Below, one piece after another: positions 1,694 through 19,149 of a stretch of DNA of 64,000 bases; position 1 is the first letter of the stretch; each line of letters opens with the position of its first letter. The translations under genes were made by a program, and so were the position numbers. Source of the DNA: Pseudomonadota bacterium (GTDB lineage Bacteria; Desulfobacterota; Syntrophorhabdia; Syntrophorhabdales; Syntrophorhabdaceae); the NCBI GenBank assembly GCA_026388315.1, contig JAPLKA010000054.1:1-64000 (forward strand), read 5' to 3'. The notes below the pieces were generated by a model that searched no databases, was not told the origin of the DNA, and saw only the letters and a program-made list of their open reading frames with translations.

Positions 1694-1800
1694 GCATCTC
1701 CCTGCCTATTTAGTAACAGCGTATCGGATTCTTTGATTCTCTGTTTTAAGAAGGGTATCTCTTCGATTAATTTCGGATGTGTGCTGGATGTATCTTTCAT
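1690..1800 (-). pseudogene. 36-codon ORF resembling the N-terminus of a PAS sensor kinase
   Basis: A short ORF with a good ribosome-binding site (GGGAGG) starts MKDTSSTHPKLIEEIPFLKQ and stops in an ATGA overlap with the diguanylate cyclase gene. Its K-x-x-LIEE-x-x-x-L-x-x-RI pattern is typical of the coiled-coil leader in front of PAS domains in deltaproteobacterial sensor kinases. I infer a remnant of such a kinase, or a small coupled leader for the downstream gene. Confidence 0.45.
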
Positions 1801-1929
1801 CTGGCCTCCCTATGGTGATAAATAGTGCCAAGATATATTAAGATATTAAGAATATTATAGTAGATAAGCAGAAGTGTCAATTGTAAATCCATGTGAAACA
1901 TAAATAAATAACATGGATTTACAATGGAT

Positions 1930-2337
1930 AACCCGTGTTCGTATTGATTCAGTGAATAGTCGTTAGTGAATAGTGAACAGTGATGAAGACAGTGAAACCG
2001 TACATCGTACATAGTACATAGTGTTTTAAAACGATGTACTATGTACGAACGACGAACGACAAAGTAAGGGTATATAATTGATATAAGGAGCAGGGGTAAG
2101 GGATTCTCGATACTTGATACTGGATGCTTGTGAATAGTAAATAGTGAATGATATCCGAAATCCGAAATAGGATGAAAAGAAAAGAGGCAGGCCTGCGGCT
2201 ACCCACTATTCACGATAATGCCGTATCTCGTTCCTCGTATCTCGTTTTTTTAACGCTTCACGCTTCACGTAAGGTTTAATCCCGACAGCGGAGGGACATA
2301 ACGCTTCACGGGTTTCATCGCTTCACGGGTGTTGGCC
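1930..2337. repeat. Low-complexity intergenic repeats
   Basis: This gene-free stretch is made of short degenerate motifs repeated in both orientations: variants of GTGAATAGT, of TACATCGTACATAGTACAT facing its complement (about 1998-2051, hairpin-forming), of CTCGTATCTCG, of GATACTTGATACTGGAT and of CGCTTCACG. The same vocabulary recurs at 28350-28440, 48870-48920 and 60995-61045. No protein-like reading frame is convincing here. Confidence 0.7.
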
Positions 2338-2338
2338 T

Positions 2339-3577
2339 TTATCCGGTAAGCATAAGGAATTGCGTTGCAGGAATTACATAACAGTTATCACGGAAAACCT
2401 CTGCGGTATTGCAATGATAGACAATCTGATAAAAAGGGATATTCAACTTCTTGTTGAAAAATTTTCCAGGAGCACTGATTGCAGTATCCGTTTCTTTTGC
2501 TTCAAACAAAGCAACAGGGCGATTATCTTTTACAAGAACAAAGTCCACTTCGTGTCTATTCTTATCTTTTATATACATGACTTCGAAATTTCCCAACCCT
2601 GTTTCAGTGAGTCGTGATGCCATTCCGAGGAGACTTACGGCAATCAGATTTTCAAAACGGTAACCTGTATCGGAAATATTCGACCAGTCGTAGAAGTACA
2701 GCTTGGCCTCCTTCTTCACGGAGCGCAGAATATTTTTATGCCATGGCCTGATTGTAAAAATCAGATATAACTCTTTCAAAATCTCAAGCCAATTCGCTAT
2801 CGTTGCATGGTGGTAGCCGGTATCTTCGCGCAGGGAATTAATGCTAAGCGGAGATCCGACCTTTGTGGGAAGTATTTCTATAAGTTGTTCAACGCCTCTT
2901 ATATCTGCGATCCTTGATAAATCACGTATATCCTCTTTTGCAAGAAGCGTTTTGTATTCACCCTGCCATCTCCGGTGAAATCTCGGCGAACCCTTAAGGA
3001 ATGGTTCAGGAAACCCGCCAAAGGTAAGCAGATTTGCAAGATGACTCTCAAGGCCGGCATTGTCTACTTTTCTGGCATAATTAACCAACAAATCTCCTTT
3101 TGTAAAAACCTCATCGTTTTTAACAATATAAGAGAAGTTCTCTGCCGCCTCCGGCAGTCCAAGAGGGAACATCTGGTATGAAAAGTACCGTCCTATTAAA
3201 GAATCTCCTGATTTTTTGTATAAGCCCAGACGGGCGCTGCCCGTAACAAGAAGCCTTATGTTGTCTTTGCTGACATCATAAATGCCCTTGAGAATATTTC
3301 GCCAGTTTTTGTGCTTATGGATTTCGTCGAAGACAAGAGGGACGGGTTCACCTTTGAATTTATTGTCAATAATATTCCTGAAATAAAGGGGGTTTCTGTT
3401 ATATTCTTTCATAACAACCGGATCGTCCCAGTTGAAATACATACTCTCAAAACCAAGGGATGCAAGCCATTTTTTTGCAAAAGTAGTCTTCCCTATCTGC
3501 CTTGGGCCTGTGAGAAATACCATTTTGCCTGCATTCATTTCGGGATCAAAAATGTATGTGCCAACCAGTCGTTCCAT
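2339..3577 (-). CDS. AAA ATPase with C-terminal DUF4143 domain
   Basis: Predicted P-loop ATPase of the AAA_14/DUF4143 family (412 aa; usual length about 380-420). Visible: Walker A in GPRQIGKTT (residues about 24-32); Walker B in LVFDEIH followed by the family's K-x-W pattern; a sensor-like LLVTGSARL; and a C-terminal DUF4143 segment with ENLIAVSLL and EVDFVLVKDNRPVALFEAKE, which resembles a PD-(D/E)XK nuclease core. Function is not established for the family; members are often found singly near toxin-antitoxin or mobile DNA. A second paralogue lies at 20682-21905. It stands alone, separated from the next gene by repeat-rich DNA. Confidence 0.88.
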   Translation of the reverse strand: MERLVGTYIFDPEMNAGKMVFLTGPRQIGKTTFAKKWLASLGFESMYFNWDDPVVMKEYNRNPLYFRNIIDNKFKGEPVPLVFDEIHKHKNWRNILKGIYDVSKDNIRLLVTGSARLGLYKKSGDSLIGRYFSYQMFPLGLPEAAENFSYIVKNDEVFTKGDLLVNYARKVDNAGLESHLANLLTFGGFPEPFLKGSPRFHRRWQGEYKTLLAKEDIRDLSRIADIRGVEQLIEILPTKVGSPLSINSLREDTGYHHATIANWLEILKELYLIFTIRPWHKNILRSVKKEAKLYFYDWSNISDTGYRFENLIAVSLLGMASRLTETGLGNFEVMYIKDKNRHEVDFVLVKDNRPVALFEAKETDTAISAPGKFFNKKLNIPFYQIVYHCNTAEVFRDNCYVIPATQFLMLTG

Positions 3578-9176: not shown

Positions 9177-11252
9177 TTAACGGCAATCCTCCTTCTTTTT
9201 TGCCCATTCGTATGCTTTGCAATTTCCCATGCTACATGCCTTCTGAGCATCACTGCACCCACTGGTGGTATTGCCCATAAGCAAATACGCAATACCTCGG
9301 TTGTTGTATGCCATGGCAAGGTCAGGTTTAAGACGGATAACCTCGTTACAATCTTCAATTGCCTGTTGGTACAGACCAAGGTTAGCGTATGCTAACCCCC
9401 GGTTGTAGTATGCTTTGGCAAGGTCATACGGTCCCAGGCGGATAGCCTCATCATAATCCTCGATAGCATGTTGATGCTGCCCGAGGTTAGCATAAGTAAA
9501 CCCACGGTTGTTGTATGCCTCCGCATAATCCGGTTTCAGGCGGATAACCTCGTTGTAATCCTCAATTGCCTGCCGCTGCTGACCGAGTTTATAGTAAGCA
9601 TCACCACGGTTATAGTATATGTCGGCATCATCCGGTTTCAGGCGGATAACCTCGTTGTAATCCTCAATTGCCCGCTGGTACTGGCCGAGTTTATTGTATG
9701 CCCACCCCCGTTTGGTGTATGCTTCGGCAAGGTCAGGTTTAAGGCTGATAACCTCGTTGTAATCCTCAATGGCCCGCTGGTACTGGCCGAGTTCATCATA
9801 CGCAATCCCCCGGTTGTAGTATGCCTTCGCATCATCCGGTTTGAGACGGATGGCCTCATTGTAGTCTTCAATTGCTGGCTGGTGCTGGCCCAGGTTAATG
9901 TAAGCATTCCCCCGGTTCACATATGCATCAGCAATATCCGGTTTGAGACGGATGGCCTCATTGTAGTCTTCAATTGCTGGCTGGCGCTGTCCGGGTTCAT
10001 CGTATACTGTCCCCAGGTTGTTGTATCCCTCCGCATCATCCGGTTTCAGGCGGATAACCTCGTTGTAATCCTCAATTGCCCGCTGGTACTGGCCGAGTTT
10101 ATTGTATGCCCACCACCGGTTGTTGTATGCATAGACATAATCCGGTTTCAGGCTAATGGTCTCATTATAGTCCTCGACGGCCCGCTGGTATTGACCGAGC
10201 TCACCATAAGCAAAACCACGGTTATAGTATGCGGTAACATAATCCGGTTTCAGGCGGATAACCTCATTGTAATCCTCAATTGCCCGCTGGTATTGACCGA
10301 GCTCACCATAAGCAAAACCACGGTTAAAGTATGTATCTGCATCATCCGGTTTCAGACGGATGGCCTCATCGAAGTCCTTGAAGGCCTGTTGGTATTGCGC
10401 AAGCTTGCTATAAGCAATCCCCCGGTTGTAGTATGTCTTCGCATCATCCGGTTGCAGGAGGATTATCTTGTCGAAGTTCTCGATTGCTCGTTGGTACTGA
10501 CCAAGGTCATAATAAGTTATTCCCCGCTGCTCGTAGGCATCGATATAATCCGGTTTAAGACGGATGATCTCATCCAGGTATTCCGTCGCCTTTTTCGGAT
10601 CGGTGTATTTGCCGTTATTTGTGTCCCACAGGGCGAACAGCTTATCAAACCAGTCCACCGCCGTGAGCCCCTGGGATGCCTCCTGAAATTGCTTCTCCAA
10701 ATCCTTGCTGCTTTTGTTTTGTGCTATTAGGCGCAGGTTTTCCTCTTCCAGTTTGGCTATCTTATCCAGCAGTTCCTTCTCCCTCTCTCTGGCCTGGTTG
10801 AGGTTTTCCAAGTGGGTTCTGTTTTGCAAAAGGTTCTCGACTCTGGCTTCCAGAAAGGATGTATCAATAACCACCTTGACCACGACTTCAATGCCAGAGT
10901 CATCCCCGCTGATGTAACTCTTCTGTGATACAACCTCTGTCTTCAAGACACCTGCTGTCAGGGCAAGGATTTCATCTTTCTCTACCCGTAAGTTTTTGAC
11001 AACAATGAGACCTTCCACATAGACCCATGCCATTTCCAGGGCTTCCCGTTCTGCTCGTGCCACCGCGGCAATCCTGGCATCATCAGGGGATTGATTACCC
11101 TCAAAAGGTTGTTTGACTGTGTGGGTGACGGTCTTCATCTCTCCTGACGCAGGGAAGGGGATAAGGCTCAGAATAACCGCCACGATAACGGCAAAGCAGA
11201 AGAAGGAATATGCCTGAATAGTTGGAATATGCTTTGATAACACATCTCTCAC
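9177..11252 (-). CDS. Exported TPR protein with about 13 near-identical repeats
   Basis: Protein of 691 aa. The N-terminal hydrophobic segment (about 13-36) is a signal sequence or anchor. A conserved domain (about 50-150, RIAAVARAEREALEMAWVYV) is shared with the neighbour at 11419. A coiled coil (about 160-185) leads into TPR units of 34 residues each from about 230 to the end, with the consensus AYYNRGxAYxxLGQYQRAIE followed by DYNEVIRLKPD. Repeats 3-12 are so alike at DNA level (102-bp period) that unequal recombination is likely to change copy number. Protein-protein interaction scaffold in the envelope; partners unknown. The last unit degenerates and ends in a Cys-rich tail. Confidence 0.85.
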   Translation of the reverse strand: MRDVLSKHIPTIQAYSFFCFAVIVAVILSLIPFPASGEMKTVTHTVKQPFEGNQSPDDARIAAVARAEREALEMAWVYVEGLIVVKNLRVEKDEILALTAGVLKTEVVSQKSYISGDDSGIEVVVKVVIDTSFLEARVENLLQNRTHLENLNQAREREKELLDKIAKLEEENLRLIAQNKSSKDLEKQFQEASQGLTAVDWFDKLFALWDTNNGKYTDPKKATEYLDEIIRLKPDYIDAYEQRGITYYDLGQYQRAIENFDKIILLQPDDAKTYYNRGIAYSKLAQYQQAFKDFDEAIRLKPDDADTYFNRGFAYGELGQYQRAIEDYNEVIRLKPDYVTAYYNRGFAYGELGQYQRAVEDYNETISLKPDYVYAYNNRWWAYNKLGQYQRAIEDYNEVIRLKPDDAEGYNNLGTVYDEPGQRQPAIEDYNEAIRLKPDIADAYVNRGNAYINLGQHQPAIEDYNEAIRLKPDDAKAYYNRGIAYDELGQYQRAIEDYNEVISLKPDLAEAYTKRGWAYNKLGQYQRAIEDYNEVIRLKPDDADIYYNRGDAYYKLGQQRQAIEDYNEVIRLKPDYAEAYNNRGFTYANLGQHQHAIEDYDEAIRLGPYDLAKAYYNRGLAYANLGLYQQAIEDCNEVIRLKPDLAMAYNNRGIAYLLMGNTTSGCSDAQKACSMGNCKAYEWAKKKEDCR

Positions 11253-14239: not shown

Positions 14240-15112
14240 TTATCTGAGTTTATATTTTTTAGCCCATTGGGCAACGTGTATGGGGCTTTCGAGCACCTCA
14301 ACTCCTGCTGAGCGCAATGCCTCATGCTTTCCTGCCACAGTTCCTGAAGAGCCGCGCACAATGGCACCAGCATGGCCCATCCGCTTACCCTGCGGTGAAT
14401 AGCGTCCCGCGATGTAAGCAGCAACGGGCTTGCTCATTCTTCTGGAGATGAACCCGGCGGCCTTCTCTTCCTGTTCTCCTCCAACTTCGCCAACTACGAT
14501 TACCGCGTCGGTACCTTCGTCTTCTTCGAAGAGTTCGAGGATATCGGCAAGGTTCCTCAGGACAACCGGATCGGCTCCCATGCCTACGACGGTGCTCTGA
14601 CCCACATTGTTCTCAGAGAGAATGCCTGCAAATTCATAGGAGAGTGTGCCACTGCGGGAGACGATACCCACACGGCCCGGTGCAAAAAGAGATGCAGGCA
14701 TGATGCCCATTTTACCTTTTCCGGGAGCGAGAATACCCGGGGTTGTTGGTCCGAGTGCAAAAACACCCTTTTCAATGGCATGACTGCGCATTTTAACCAC
14801 ATCCTTAACGGGAATGTGTTCAGGTACAACAACGATGAGCTTGATTCCTGCTTCGATGGTTTCCAGAAAGGCATCGAGAACGCCTGCAGCAGGAACAAAA
14901 AAGACCGATGCATTGGCGCCTGTTTCCTTCACCACCTCCGCAACACTGTCAAAAACGGGTAATCCTTCAACGGTAGCCCCTCCCTTGCCAGGGGTGACAC
15001 CACCTACGACCTTTGTCCCGTAGGCAAGCATCCACTGGGTCTGGGCGCTTCCTATACGACCGGTGATGCCCTGTACTATGACACGGGTAGAATCATCAAT
15101 TAATATACTCAT
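14240..15112 (-). CDS. sucD: Succinate-CoA ligase, alpha subunit (or related acyl-CoA synthetase)
   Basis: 290 aa, the usual SucD length. CoA-binding Rossmann domain at the N-terminus (VIVQGITGRIGSAQTQWML), TPGGKG-type loop as TPGKGGATVEGLPVFDS, ligase domain with LAPGKGKMGIMPASLF and GIVSRSGTLSYE, and the phosphohistidine in MGHAGAIVRGSSGT (His about 243). It would form, with the SucC-like protein upstream, an ADP- or GDP-forming ligase that in a fermentative organism gains ATP from an acyl-CoA. Because the locus also carries a 4-hydroxybutyryl-CoA-dehydratase-like gene and a regulator, a non-succinate substrate is possible. Confidence 0.88.
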   Translation of the reverse strand: MSILIDDSTRVIVQGITGRIGSAQTQWMLAYGTKVVGGVTPGKGGATVEGLPVFDSVAEVVKETGANASVFFVPAAGVLDAFLETIEAGIKLIVVVPEHIPVKDVVKMRSHAIEKGVFALGPTTPGILAPGKGKMGIMPASLFAPGRVGIVSRSGTLSYEFAGILSENNVGQSTVVGMGADPVVLRNLADILELFEEDEGTDAVIVVGEVGGEQEEKAAGFISRRMSKPVAAYIAGRYSPQGKRMGHAGAIVRGSSGTVAGKHEALRSAGVEVLESPIHVAQWAKKYKLR

Positions 15113-15594: not shown

Positions 15595-16731
15595 TTATTT
15601 ACCAACCAGCTCATAAAGCCTCTCAACGGCTTTTTCCGTTGCTGCCTCAGTCACCACATGAACACCGGCGGACCGGAATATCTCCCAGGTCTCCTCCTGA
15701 CGGTTTCCGAGCGCCTTGGCGACAATGGGTATCTTCACGTTGTGTTCCTTGATATAGCGAACCACCCCTTTGGCTCCTTCGTGGATGGGGTTGATGCCAC
15801 CGTAGACATTTATGAATATGGCTTTGAGGTCAGGCTTCATCATGATGAGTTCCATACAACGGTAAAGCTGATCGGCCGTAATACCCCCTCCTGTCTCAAG
15901 GAAGTTGGCCGGTTTCATTTTTTCTCCGATGATGTCCATGGATGCCATGCCAAGTCCTGCCCCGGAGGAGATGAGTCCGATATCCCCGTCGAGGTCCACA
16001 TAGGTAACGCCGATCTCCCTGCCTCTTCGCTCAAGGGGGTTCTCGATCCGGTCAATACGATCCGGCAGAGGCAAACGGATCCTCGACAGGGCAGAGTCAT
16101 CCACTTCCAGTACGGCATCGATAGCAATCAAGCCGCCGTTGGGAAGGACGACAAGCGGATTGATCTCAGCAATGAGGGCCTCGTAACGCACTCCGATATT
16201 AAAAAGCTGTCCGATCACATCGCTCCAGGCAGTAACGAGTTGTTGTTTGAGGCCGAGCATCCTCAGGAGACTGCGAGCCTGGTAGGGGTAATAGCCAAAA
16301 GAGGGGTCGATGTGGATTGCAGCGATCTTTTCCGGCGAGGTCTTTGCCGTTTGTTCGATCAACACACCACCTTCAGTACTGACCACAATAACAGGTTTAC
16401 CCGAATAGCTATCCACCGTAATGCCCAAATACAGTTCCTTTGCAATCTCCACCTTCTCGCACACGAGTATCTTACGGACAGGCAATCCCTTAATCTCTGA
16501 AGTGAGCAGTGCATCGGCGATTTCTTTTAATTCGTCCGGCGAGGATGCCGTTTTGATACCGCCCGCAAGTCCCCGGCCACCAACGAGGACCTGGGCCTTC
16601 AACATAACGGGATAGCCTATTTCTCCAGCTATATGAAGGGCTTCGTGCATTGTTCCTGCAAGACCACGGCGCGGAACAGGGATGCGGTTCTGTTCAAAAA
16701 TGTCTAATGCCTCATATTCATGAAGTCTCAT
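15595..16731 (-). CDS. sucC: Succinate-CoA ligase, beta subunit (or related acyl-CoA synthetase)
   Basis: 378 aa, close to SucC. ATP-grasp N-terminal domain: MRLHEYEALDIFEQNRIPVP, the nucleotide-binding PVMLKAQVLVGGRGLAGGIK (about 39-58) and INPLVVLPNGGLIAIDAVLE (about 200); C-terminal ligase domain with GLISSGAGLGMASMDII, FLETGGG and INVYGGI (about 305). It pairs with the alpha subunit downstream. Divergent from the GntR gene at 16884, with an AT-rich 150-base regulatory gap. Its 3' end is duplicated at 15459-15493. Confidence 0.88.
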   Translation of the reverse strand: MRLHEYEALDIFEQNRIPVPRRGLAGTMHEALHIAGEIGYPVMLKAQVLVGGRGLAGGIKTASSPDELKEIADALLTSEIKGLPVRKILVCEKVEIAKELYLGITVDSYSGKPVIVVSTEGGVLIEQTAKTSPEKIAAIHIDPSFGYYPYQARSLLRMLGLKQQLVTAWSDVIGQLFNIGVRYEALIAEINPLVVLPNGGLIAIDAVLEVDDSALSRIRLPLPDRIDRIENPLERRGREIGVTYVDLDGDIGLISSGAGLGMASMDIIGEKMKPANFLETGGGITADQLYRCMELIMMKPDLKAIFINVYGGINPIHEGAKGVVRYIKEHNVKIPIVAKALGNRQEETWEIFRSAGVHVVTEAATEKAVERLYELVGK

Positions 16732-16765
16732 AACAGTTCAATTCCTTGTTTAAGTTGTTTTATTA

Positions 16766-16794
16766 ATTGCATAGTGCATTTATTATGAATGCAA
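16766..16794. promoter_or_regulatory. Inverted repeat in the sucC/GntR divergent promoter region
   Basis: ATTGCAT and ATGCAAT form 7-base arms 15 bases apart inside the AT-rich spacer between the divergent sucC and GntR-family genes. Position and symmetry fit an operator for the adjacent regulator, but no second copy was found upstream of the dehydratase-like gene, so this is only a candidate. Confidence 0.3.
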
Positions 16795-16883
16795 TCATCA
16801 AGTATAAATAGACAACTGATTTATGTCAATTAAAAAATTAATATTTTAATTGCAAATCAAATTTAATTGTTGTACCATATCGC

Positions 16884-17585
16884 ATGTCACAGAATAAGAC
16901 AAATGAAAAAGCAAAACAACAGGAAGACAGTAGCCAGATTGCATATCATGGAATCCGACGCATGCTTTACACTAAGGAGCTTGTGCCTGGCCAGAGGATT
17001 GCTTACCGGGACCTTGCTGAGAAACTTCAACTGAGTCCGACCCCCATCATTCAGGCCCTTAAATGGCTGGAACTGCAGGGTTTTGTTTGCCACGAAGCGA
17101 ACCGGGGCTATTCTATGGCGCCCTTCAGCCTGAAAGAAATAGAAGAACTGTACGAACTCCGGGAGCTTGTCGAGCCTTCGTTAATTTCTGCCACAATCCA
17201 GTGTATTGATAAAGAAGGCCTTCGTGAGCTTAAAGCGGCACTGGAGGCTCATTTGTCAGCGGAGAGAGAATTCTATTTAAAGGAAAGGCTTTTCAAAAAC
17301 AGGGAATTTCACATGACCCTGGCGTCCCTTTCAGGGAAGGCGACACAGATCCGATTACTACAGAATGTTTTCGATATGTTGTTCCTTAAGTACGGTGGGA
17401 ACTACTTTCCCATGGCATCGCTTACGTCCACCGATCAGGAACATCAGGAGATATATGATGCGGTTGCATTGCGAAGTCTCGAAAGAGCCCAAAAAGTGCT
17501 CAAAAATCACCTCACCAATGTGAAGGTACAGGTCCTGTCGAGTGTCCGGAAGATATTGGCGGAGCAGGAACGGTCTCCATTCTGA
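16884..17585 (+). CDS. GntR-family (FadR/FCD) transcriptional regulator
   Basis: DNA-binding repressor or activator, 233 aa. The N-terminal winged helix (AYHGIRRMLYTKELVPGQRI, then AEKLQLSPTPIIQALKWLEL) is GntR type. The C-terminal FCD ligand-binding domain (about 75-220) is all-helical with the metal/acid-binding pattern E-LYELRELVEP, then FHMTLASLSG, and a late HQEIYDA. It sits between sucCD (divergent) and the dehydratase-like gene (same strand, 127 bases on), so it probably controls one or both in response to an organic acid or CoA intermediate. Confidence 0.87.
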   Translation: MSQNKTNEKAKQQEDSSQIAYHGIRRMLYTKELVPGQRIAYRDLAEKLQLSPTPIIQALKWLELQGFVCHEANRGYSMAPFSLKEIEELYELRELVEPSLISATIQCIDKEGLRELKAALEAHLSAEREFYLKERLFKNREFHMTLASLSGKATQIRLLQNVFDMLFLKYGGNYFPMASLTSTDQEHQEIYDAVALRSLERAQKVLKNHLTNVKVQVLSSVRKILAEQERSPF

Positions 17586-17665: not shown

Positions 17666-17712
17666 GGTATTCGCTATTGTAGTTCAATTTAACGTTAAGG
17701 AGGTAATACAAC

Positions 17713-19149
17713 ATGGGTCTTAAAACAAAAGAGGAATATATCGAATCTATCCGGGCTCTCAAGCCGGTGGCATATATGTTTGGAGAGCGCCTCACAAACA
17801 TCGTAGATAACCCCCGTATCCGCGCAGGCATTGAAGCAACAGGAGCTACATACGATTTGGCAGAAAAGCCGGAAAACCGTGATCTTATGGTTACCACAAG
17901 TCCGCTCATCAATGAGCCGGTAAGCCGCTTTACGCTTCCGCCTGCGAGTATCGAAGACCTCGTGGCCCGGGTAAAGGTGAACCGGAAAGTTGCCAATTAT
18001 GTAGGAACGTGCCACCAGAGGTGCACAGGCCTTGATTGTCTGTCCACGTTATCTATTGTGACCTACGATATTGACCGGAAATACGGGACTAACTACAATA
18101 AAAATTTTATTGAATTTTTAAAGTATATGCAGAAAAATGATCTCACCGGAAATGCCGGCGTTACGGACGTAAAAGGCGACCGTTCCCTCAATCCAAGCGA
18201 GCAGGTGGACAAGGACATGTTCCTCCGGGTCGTTGAAAAACGTGACGACGGGATTGTCGTTCGAGGGGCAAAGGCCCATCAGACCGGTTCTCTCTCGTCC
18301 CATGAAATCATCGTGCTTCCTACCAGGGCAATGGGCAAGGCGGATGTAGACTACTCGGTCTCCTTTGCCATTCCATCAGATACAAAGGGATTGATTCACG
18401 TAGTCGGCAGGTCCACCCTCGATATGCGGGAACTGGATGGCGCCGATTGCGGAAACGTTTTCTATTCCAAATACTGCCCGACTCTCATCTTTGATGATGT
18501 TTTTGTGCCGTGGGAAAGGGTCTTTATGTGCGGCGAGACAGAATTTGCAGCAGAAATGGTTATCAAGTTTTCCTCCTTCCACCGTCAAAGCCATGGCGGA
18601 TGCAAATCCGGAAAGATCGACTGCATGATCGGTACAGCTCTCACTATGATGGACTATAACGGCACTTCCAAGGCCGGTCACCTGAAGCAGAAGGTTATCG
18701 ATATGATACACAGGGCGGAAACTCTCTACGGCTGCTGCCTTGCCTCTTCCTATGAAGGGCAGAAACAGCCTTCCGGAAGTTACTTTATCGACACGGTACT
18801 TGCCAACGCCTCCAAGATCCACGAGGGCAGGGAAATGGCTGAAGCTACCAGATTGATGATAGATGCCTGCGGTGGCTTTGTTGCGGATTTACCTTCTGAC
18901 AGAGATTTTGAGAACCCCGAAATTGGCGGTCTCCTGAAGAAGTACCTGAAAGGTGTTGATGGCGTTCCTGTTGAAAACAGGGTCAGGATGTACAGGTTAG
19001 CGGAAAAGCTGGCGCTTGAAAGCGCTGATACAATTTCCGATATCCATGGTGGCGGTTCCCCTGAAGCGCATCGTGTGACCATTTTCCGTGAAACCGATAC
19101 AGCGGCTAAGAAAAAAGCAGCCAAGAGACTGGCAGGGATTAAGGATTAA
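17713..19149 (+). CDS. 4-hydroxybutyryl-CoA dehydratase/vinylacetyl-CoA isomerase homologue with altered active site
   Basis: 478 aa, full length for the FAD/[4Fe-4S] AbfD family (HpaB fold). The iron-sulfur ligands corresponding to C99, C103, H292 and C299 of the Clostridium aminobutyricum enzyme are present (C100 and C104 in GTCHQRCTGLD; H290 and C297 in FHRQSHGGCK), as are AHQTG and KGDR. Aligning with my recollection of that enzyme, however, E257 becomes C255, Y296 becomes H294 and E455 becomes S442. The family fold and cofactors are thus supported, but canonical 4-hydroxybutyryl-CoA dehydration is doubtful. RBS AAGGAGG precedes the ATG. The regulator upstream and ligase genes nearby suggest a fermentative acyl-CoA route. 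Confidence 0.85.
   Translation: MGLKTKEEYIESIRALKPVAYMFGERLTNIVDNPRIRAGIEATGATYDLAEKPENRDLMVTTSPLINEPVSRFTLPPASIEDLVARVKVNRKVANYVGTCHQRCTGLDCLSTLSIVTYDIDRKYGTNYNKNFIEFLKYMQKNDLTGNAGVTDVKGDRSLNPSEQVDKDMFLRVVEKRDDGIVVRGAKAHQTGSLSSHEIIVLPTRAMGKADVDYSVSFAIPSDTKGLIHVVGRSTLDMRELDGADCGNVFYSKYCPTLIFDDVFVPWERVFMCGETEFAAEMVIKFSSFHRQSHGGCKSGKIDCMIGTALTMMDYNGTSKAGHLKQKVIDMIHRAETLYGCCLASSYEGQKQPSGSYFIDTVLANASKIHEGREMAEATRLMIDACGGFVADLPSDRDFENPEIGGLLKKYLKGVDGVPVENRVRMYRLAEKLALESADTISDIHGGGSPEAHRVTIFRETDTAAKKKAAKRLAGIKD

Follow-up and report, generated by a model that had tools for sequence, protein, structure and literature searches.

A gene at positions 17713..19149 (+) of the window, by which we mean the whole analysed stretch of 64,000 nucleotides, encodes a relative of the oxygen-sensitive radical enzyme 4-hydroxybutyryl-CoA dehydratase (4-HBD) in which the ligands of the [4Fe-4S] cluster are kept and the triad Glu, Tyr and Glu (E/Y/E) is exchanged for Cys, His and Ser (C/H/S). 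The protein belongs to a clade with the same exchange, which very probably represents a subfamily of its own whose substrate or reaction has changed. More tentatively, we hypothesize that the members of this subfamily within the 4-HBD family are functional enzymes acting on a 2-hydroxy dicarboxylic CoA ester, likeliest by interconverting 4-hydroxyglutaryl-CoA and glutaconyl-CoA.

The open reading frame starts with ATG, follows a ribosome-binding site read from the sequence (AAGGAGG, 17697..17703, +) and yields a 478-aa protein, P0001, with an HpaB/acyl-CoA-dehydrogenase-like fold. A Pfam profile search identified HpaB_N and HpaB domains, and the scores against the NCBIfam equivalogs of HpaB monooxygenases stay below the cut-offs (163.6 versus 480.2 bits for TIGR02309; 73.5 versus 885.2 bits for TIGR02310). 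The best solved relatives found by phmmer are both 4-HBDs, 1u8v with 452 bits and 6vjr with 420 bits. Single-sequence AlphaFold modeling of P0001 reached a pLDDT of only 34.4, and an input alignment of 80 homologues was used instead, which raised it to 92.8. The resulting model matches 1u8v structurally across 476 residues (rmsd 1.5, Z 55.0) and 6vjr with Z 55.6, predicting that the 4-HBD fold is kept; it also resembles acyl-CoA dehydrogenases (Z about 24–25). Its weak part comprises residues 431–450, the region around S442, with block-mean pLDDT values of 76 and 68.

Active-site residues were mapped from the phmmer alignment of P0001 to 1U8V, in 1U8V numbering, and the mapping was repeated in MAFFT alignments; the superposition over 476 residues supports this alignment overall. 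The preliminary description had stated that the Fe-S ligands are retained and that E257, Y296 and E455 have become Cys, His and Ser. Both statements hold in the alignments, and for the exchanges the model superposition agrees overall. Ligands C99 and C103 correspond to C100 and C104 (codons at 18010..18024, +), and H292 and C299 to H290 and C297 (18580..18606, +), three Cys and one His that would give P0001 the capacity to bind the cluster. T190, K300 and Q101 are likewise preserved as T191, K298 (codon in the same 18580..18606 stretch) and Q102. The exchanged positions are C255 for E257 (18469..18477, +, together with Y254 and with K253 at the place of G255), H294 for Y296 (18580..18606, +) and S442 for E455 (19036..19041, +, together with D443 at the place of S456). 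A three-residue gap in P0001 lies just ahead of E455. Of the three losses, that of E455 is the least certain, because model confidence around S442 is low and because D443 is adjacent; D443 could replace the carboxylate of E455.

The same description had spoken of an altered acid/base set. The exchange of the three residues stands, but their roles exceed acid/base catalysis: in the work of Zhang and colleagues from 2015, E257, Y296 and E455 are reported to be a proposed radical-starting triad, in which E455 deprotonates Y296, Y296 reduces FAD, and E257 and T190 act as a proton relay. For the variants E257Q, E455Q and Y296W, activity was reportedly not measurable, and for Y296F and T190V it was below 1%. 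Loss of the very triad tied to the radical start, with the cluster ligands left in place, would suit an isomerase or redox enzyme: the protein might be a delta-isomerase whose substrate is a dicarboxylic enoyl-CoA (glutaconyl-CoA, for example), or it might act on a dicarboxyl-CoA in the manner of an acyl-CoA dehydrogenase. The acyl-CoA dehydrogenase fold and the isomerase activity ascribed to the 4-HBD family point the same way. We nevertheless regard this alternative as unlikely, since a plain isomerase or dehydrogenase would have no need of the four conserved cluster ligands, and the 2-hydroxyacid partner genes described below point to a hydroxylated substrate. A general FAD-semiquinone/ketyl-radical mechanism is set out, citing Zhang et al. 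2015, in the accessible part of PMC13101534.

To delimit the clade, genomes were scanned with P0001, which returned 80 loci; 64 of these (L003–L066) are close relatives with about 73–94% identity in the best segment, after which identity drops to 49% or less. In the phylum sample, some 4-HBD homologue was detected in 144 of 395 genomes and the close clade in 31, comprising 30 genomes with at least 68% identity and G024, which has a 95-residue fragment; the next full match below the clade shows 50% identity. At 68–94% identity, the members come mostly from Desulfobacterota, with some in bins labelled Bacillota, and are described as mostly sulfate-reducing and syntrophic bacteria. Carriers in the window's own family include the genome of the window itself, G023, G001 and others. 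The 31 of 395 sampled genomes, together with the several genomes of the same family, led us to reject contamination or one aberrant genome as an explanation.

A MAFFT alignment of 122 non-redundant homologues with 1U8V and 6VJR contained 76 clade rows, 43 other 4-HBD-like rows (at least 39% identity, both PDB chains counted among them) and five more distant rows, which vary at the triad. C/H/S was found in 71 of the 76 clade rows; two carry A/H/S, one X/H/S (unreadable), and two end before the third site. The other 4-HBD-like rows read E/Y/E in 40 of 43 cases, A/Y/V in two and E/T/S in one. By position, H294 is present in all 76 clade rows, S442 in 74 (the other two being truncated) and C255 in 73, and the clade carries further specific changes, in 1U8V numbering G254S, G255K (K253, 75/76), S456D (D443, 73/76), A460G and Q466H. 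When the three triad columns were removed, the 30 sampled clade members still formed one branch (SH-aLRT 100) on a stem of 0.93 changes per column, with 1U8V and 6VJR outside it. Such fast change on the stem, followed by tight conservation, suggests a change of function. A decayed or non-catalytic homologue would account for the loss of three catalytic residues, but it is a highly improbable reading and was rejected: the new residues do not vary across diverse families at 68–94% identity, the ligands are kept, and the operons are conserved.

Several further family members were observed. The window's genome also holds an E/Y/E paralogue (G000:C110; L136), which adjoins an AbfT-like protein of the acetyl-CoA hydrolase/transferase family. 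Syntrophus sp. GWC2_56_31 (G425) encodes two variant copies (C30 and C128), both with 73% identity to P0001. Another small subgroup of 4-HBD in G064 and G210 (L150:234-1709 and L157:262-1749) has the triad A/Y/V and retains the cluster ligands, with T190 replaced by Gly and K300 by Ser. HpaB-fold paralogues without cluster ligands occur at L137:16367-17854 (-), in a locus that also contains a variant copy some 5.5 kb away, and at L145:222-1661. Tandem divergent 4-HBD paralogues at L144:228-1679 and 1759-3198 (G014:C83) show E/T/S and E/K/W, and L072:6001-13449 (Syntrophaceae UBA7520) contains four 4-HBD homologues, two with E/Y/E, one with D/Y/G and one cut by the locus end.

In the window, the gene directly upstream of the variant gene encodes a GntR/FCD regulator of 233 aa (16884..17585, +), identified by profile matches and kept in loci of the same layout, in line with the GntR regulator noted earlier. 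Divergent from it lie genes for a SucC-type beta subunit (15595..16731, -) and a SucD-type alpha subunit (14240..15112, -, profile match) of an ADP-forming CoA ligase. The acyl-CoA synthetase pair that had been described nearby is thus present as a CoA-ligase pair, but profile scores assign it to the SucCD type. Against the succinate-CoA ligase cut-offs, the alpha subunit scores above (367 versus 353.2, TIGR01019) and the beta subunit below (347.5 versus 375.55, TIGR01016; 343.6 versus 370 bits, NF001913). A second SucD at G000:C52:36139-36987 is 49% identical to the window SucD, and the housekeeping SucC beside it (L141) reaches 539 bits against the same NF001913 cut-off. Judged by these scores, the window SucCD is a divergent paralogue rather than the housekeeping enzyme. 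The intergenic stretch separating the sucC-like gene from gntR (16732..16883), read from the sequence as an AT-rich divergent promoter region, shares only AT-rich words with other loci, a weak signal: a search for a common GntR operator in the divergent and upstream regions of several loci recovered only such words. Words such as AATTAAATTT recur in the sucC–gntR intergenic regions of several loci, and a word related to AATTAAATTT is found upstream of the Syntrophus aciditrophicus variant gene. Elsewhere in the window, 9177-11252 (-) encodes a large TPR-repeat protein of 691 aa with about 12 repeats.

Across the clade, the variant gene occurs in four layouts. In layout A, that of the window, SucCD is divergent from GntR and the variant gene. 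Layout B combines the variant gene with a DAO/BFD flavoprotein, Pyr_redox_2 and DUF1667, often with SucCD upstream. Layout C joins it to subunits of a 2-oxoacid:ferredoxin oxidoreductase (Kor), often with a D-2-hydroxyacid dehydrogenase or Ldh_2 dehydrogenase, and in layout D (L015, L032, L041, L064) SucC, SucD and the variant gene stand in one row. Partners were counted by bait searches within 5 kb, for which 69 variant loci and 18 E/Y/E control loci were given and 10 and 2 of them, respectively, were dropped (the variant loci for having less than 4.5 kb of flank), leaving 59 and 16. SucCD or Kor was detected in 46 of the 59 variant loci (SucCD in 34, Kor in 12) versus 1 of 16 controls, and 2-hydroxyacid enzymes in 29 of 59 versus 0 of 16. 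The latter comprise DAO in 18 loci, D-2-hydroxyacid dehydrogenase in 7, Ldh_2 in 3 and LarA-type in 2, one locus having two; in the other 30 loci none lies within 5 kb, and in most loci of layout A SucCD and GntR stand without one nearby. At least one of the two groups was present in 54 of 59 loci, neither in L039, L043, L044, L062 and L066. As the baits were taken from variant loci, remote homologues in the controls may be missed, and related loci are counted repeatedly; Fisher values for these counts should accordingly not be taken at face value. Still, the four 2-hydroxyacid enzyme families (DAO/L-2-hydroxyglutarate-oxidase-like, D-2-hydroxyacid dehydrogenase, Ldh_2 and LarA-type isomerase) are mutually unrelated, and common descent alone can hardly account for three or four rearranged layouts with such non-homologous enzymes.

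The profile scores of the partners leave their exact specificity broad. The DAO protein of a layout B locus (L030) scored higher as glycerol-3-phosphate oxidase II (266.7 bits) than as L-2-hydroxyglutarate oxidase (221.8 bits; NF008726, cut-off 299), both below cut-off, and the S. aciditrophicus DAO reached 228.9 bits against the same cut-off of 299. DAO also has a match in the Drosophila chain 8w75 (FI05204p), taken here to be L-2-hydroxyglutarate dehydrogenase. The layout C Kor (L049) lies below the 2-oxoglutarate-specific cut-offs (alpha 308.3 versus 579, NF007206; beta 249.4 versus 364, NF007207), with its alpha subunit above the general 2-oxoacid cut-off (448.5 versus 411, NF006412). A KHG/KDPG aldolase adjoins the variant gene in L039 and L044, and a nickel-pincer isomerase (LarA-type, group 22) does so at L055:4498-5784, with a homologue near the variant gene in L045.

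We name 2-hydroxyglutarate as the candidate free acid because the partners imply a 2-hydroxyacid together with a dicarboxylate CoA ligase, and because 4-HBD chemistry removes a hydroxyl at C4, counted from the thioester. If CoA is attached to the distal carboxyl of a 2-hydroxy diacid and the hydroxyl is to stand at carbon 4, the ester is 4-hydroxyglutaryl-CoA. This substrate, 2-hydroxyglutarate with CoA on C5, is our best guess. The extra carboxylate on C4 fits the loss of two active-site glutamates and the gain of His and Lys, since it would not be tolerated well beside E257 and E455 but would be favoured near His and Lys. In the proposed scheme, the variant enzyme would reversibly (de)hydrate 4-hydroxyglutaryl-CoA and glutaconyl-CoA, the SucCD-type ligase would make or break the CoA ester between 4-hydroxyglutaryl-CoA and 2-hydroxyglutarate, the 2-hydroxyacid enzymes would interconvert 2-hydroxyglutarate and 2-oxoglutarate, and Kor would link 2-oxoglutarate to succinyl-CoA. 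The flow could run either way, from glutaconyl-CoA (derived from benzoyl-CoA or glutarate breakdown) to glutamate or in reverse. Among the three replacements, C255 seems the likeliest to donate an electron itself. That the clade thereby provides an undescribed route from glutaconyl-CoA through 4-hydroxyglutaryl-CoA and 2-hydroxyglutarate to 2-oxoglutarate, using a 4-HBD relative without the Tyr/Glu/Glu starter (Cys-based or other initiation) and with one ATP gained or paid via the SucCD paralogue, is a doubtful extension. The earlier suggestion that the protein may act on another CoA ester gains support from the clade-wide fixation and the partner genes as regards a change; the substrate named here is putative.

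The partner genes also bear on two competing readings. The enzyme might still (de)hydrate crotonyl-CoA/4-hydroxybutyryl-CoA, its initiation site having been rebuilt, and lead to succinate and then, via SucCD and Kor, to 2-oxoglutarate and glutamate; Kim and colleagues (2015) are said to have considered a succinate-to-2-oxoglutarate/glutamate route for S. aciditrophicus. SucCD and Kor are the exact partners for that conversion, and the enzyme has lost neither the Fe-S ligands nor T190 and K300. This reading is nonetheless improbable: it dispenses with three residues whose exchange reportedly abolished, or nearly abolished, the Clostridium activity in the work of Zhang and colleagues, and it leaves the 2-hydroxyacid enzymes unexplained. 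Furthermore, an AbfT-like CoA-transferase was found in none of the 69 variant loci, compared with 5 of 18 control loci, among them the window genome's own E/Y/E copy, so that it is no constant neighbour of E/Y/E genes either, and the annotated conserved neighbour clusters, which cover a subset of the neighbours, contain no 4-hydroxybutyrate or succinate-semialdehyde dehydrogenase. Alternatively, the substrate could be the CoA ester of another 2-hydroxy diacid (malyl-, citramalyl-, methylated hydroxyglutaryl- or 4-hydroxy-2-oxoglutarate-derived), as the KHG/KDPG aldolase and NPN-type isomerase neighbours could mean. The SucCD relatives include malate-CoA ligase (NF010647, 251.8 bits, below the cut-off of 604), the aldolase adjoins the variant gene in two loci, and Ldh_2 and DAO are broad families; yet only a C5 diacid places the 2-hydroxyl at the 4-position from the far thioester, as 4-HBD-family chemistry demands, and malyl-CoA needs only an ordinary enoyl hydratase, so we consider another diacid quite unlikely.

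A search of the S. aciditrophicus SB genome (G428) with P0001 identified one homologue, G428:C1:723678-725114, 87% identical and carrying C/H/S. Its gene has layout B (DAO, Pyr_redox_2, DUF1667) without SucCD beside it. The proposed pathway prompted a search for the ligase, and elsewhere in the genome a SucC with 84% identity was found divergent from a GntR with 80% identity. The adjoining sucD is in two frames in the record (L187:10606-11473), with sucC and gntR whole. Among 11 genomes, a window-type SucC (at least 67% identity) was present in six of the seven with SucCD/DAO-type loci (G428, G429, G423, G218, G427 and G426, but not G422) and in none of the four of the Kor type (G340, G159, G095 and G075); the ligase and Kor thus seem to take each other's place. 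We presume the homologue to be SYN_02445, the annotated S. aciditrophicus 4-HBD that Kim and colleagues (2015) reportedly noted to lack key amino acids. If so, the residue observation would already have been published for one member. The same authors are said to have found crotonyl-CoA hydratase not measurable in this organism, and to have traced most of its glutamate to the fixation of CO2 on a C4 unit that was assigned to succinate. The clade, its partner genes and the pathway proposal were not found in the literature searched, most subscription papers lying outside it. That literature likewise yielded no paper on "4-hydroxyglutaryl-CoA" and nothing useful on the triad residues or the pathway, and the accessible parts of PMC12016533, PMC11887813 and PMC11659651 contain nothing bearing on the variant protein.

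As for upstream metabolism, no glutaconyl-CoA enzyme was seen among the annotated neighbours of the variant loci. BamA occurs in 18 of 31 variant genomes versus 75 of 364 others, and outside the window's own family in 10 of 21 versus 71 of 360, figures uncorrected for relatedness; it is absent from all seven variant genomes of family f21. As this association is confounded by relatedness, we do not use it as a main argument, and the tie of the variant gene to the benzoyl-CoA pathway is partial. HGD-D proteins (PF06050) were found in all six genomes queried, so these genomes may already have a classical 2-hydroxyacyl-CoA dehydratase, although PF06050 does not separate HgdAB from other HGD-D proteins.

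To our knowledge, 4-HBD is the only enzyme with a proposed tyrosine/FAD start of ketyl-radical chemistry. A natural clade with just the triad changed and the cluster ligands kept offers a ready-made test of that mechanism, and the partner genes give a concrete substrate list. The variant enzyme may be a missing link from aromatic or glutarate breakdown to glutamate synthesis in anaerobes. Should the 4-hydroxyglutaryl-CoA route prove true, syntrophic and sulfate-reducing bacteria would have a way to make glutamate other than through HgdABC or (Re-)citrate synthase, and the unassigned glutamate route of S. aciditrophicus could be accounted for. In surveys of carbon fixation or butyrate formation, genes of the C/H/S clade should not be counted as 4-HBD.

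Compared with known systems, P0001 shares with AbfD of Clostridium aminobutyricum (1U8V) the fold, the ligands Cys99, Cys103, His292 and Cys299, and T190, K300 and Q101. It differs by about 45% identity, other gene partners, the three-residue deletion before E455 and the replacement of E257, Y296 and E455 by C, H and S, of G255 by K, of S456 by D and of Q466 by H. Because the E/Y/E triad is absent, the variant was not filed as EC 4.2.1.120, though the 4-HBD fold and ligands are present. The 4-hydroxyphenylacetate 3-monooxygenase HpaB has the HpaB_N and HpaB domains in common with P0001, which falls far short of its TIGR02309 cut-off; that enzyme is O2-dependent and has no cluster. Flavoproteins of benzene activation were also considered and set aside, as the accessible parts of PMC13101534 and PMC13416013 describe GlcDEF/VAO-PCMH-like proteins, not the variant protein. 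The S. aciditrophicus SB homologue belongs to the same C/H/S clade but, unlike the window gene, stands beside DAO, Pyr_redox_2 and DUF1667, with the GntR–SucC module elsewhere. The 4-HBD of Nitrosopumilus maritimus (6VJR), an archaeal CO2-fixation enzyme, has the same fold and cluster ligands as P0001 and differs from it in the E/Y/E triad. Finally, 2-hydroxyglutaryl-CoA dehydratase (HgdABC) also forms glutaconyl-CoA from 2-hydroxyglutarate, as proposed for the variant enzyme, but does so with an unrelated fold, an ATP-driven activator and CoA on the other carboxyl.
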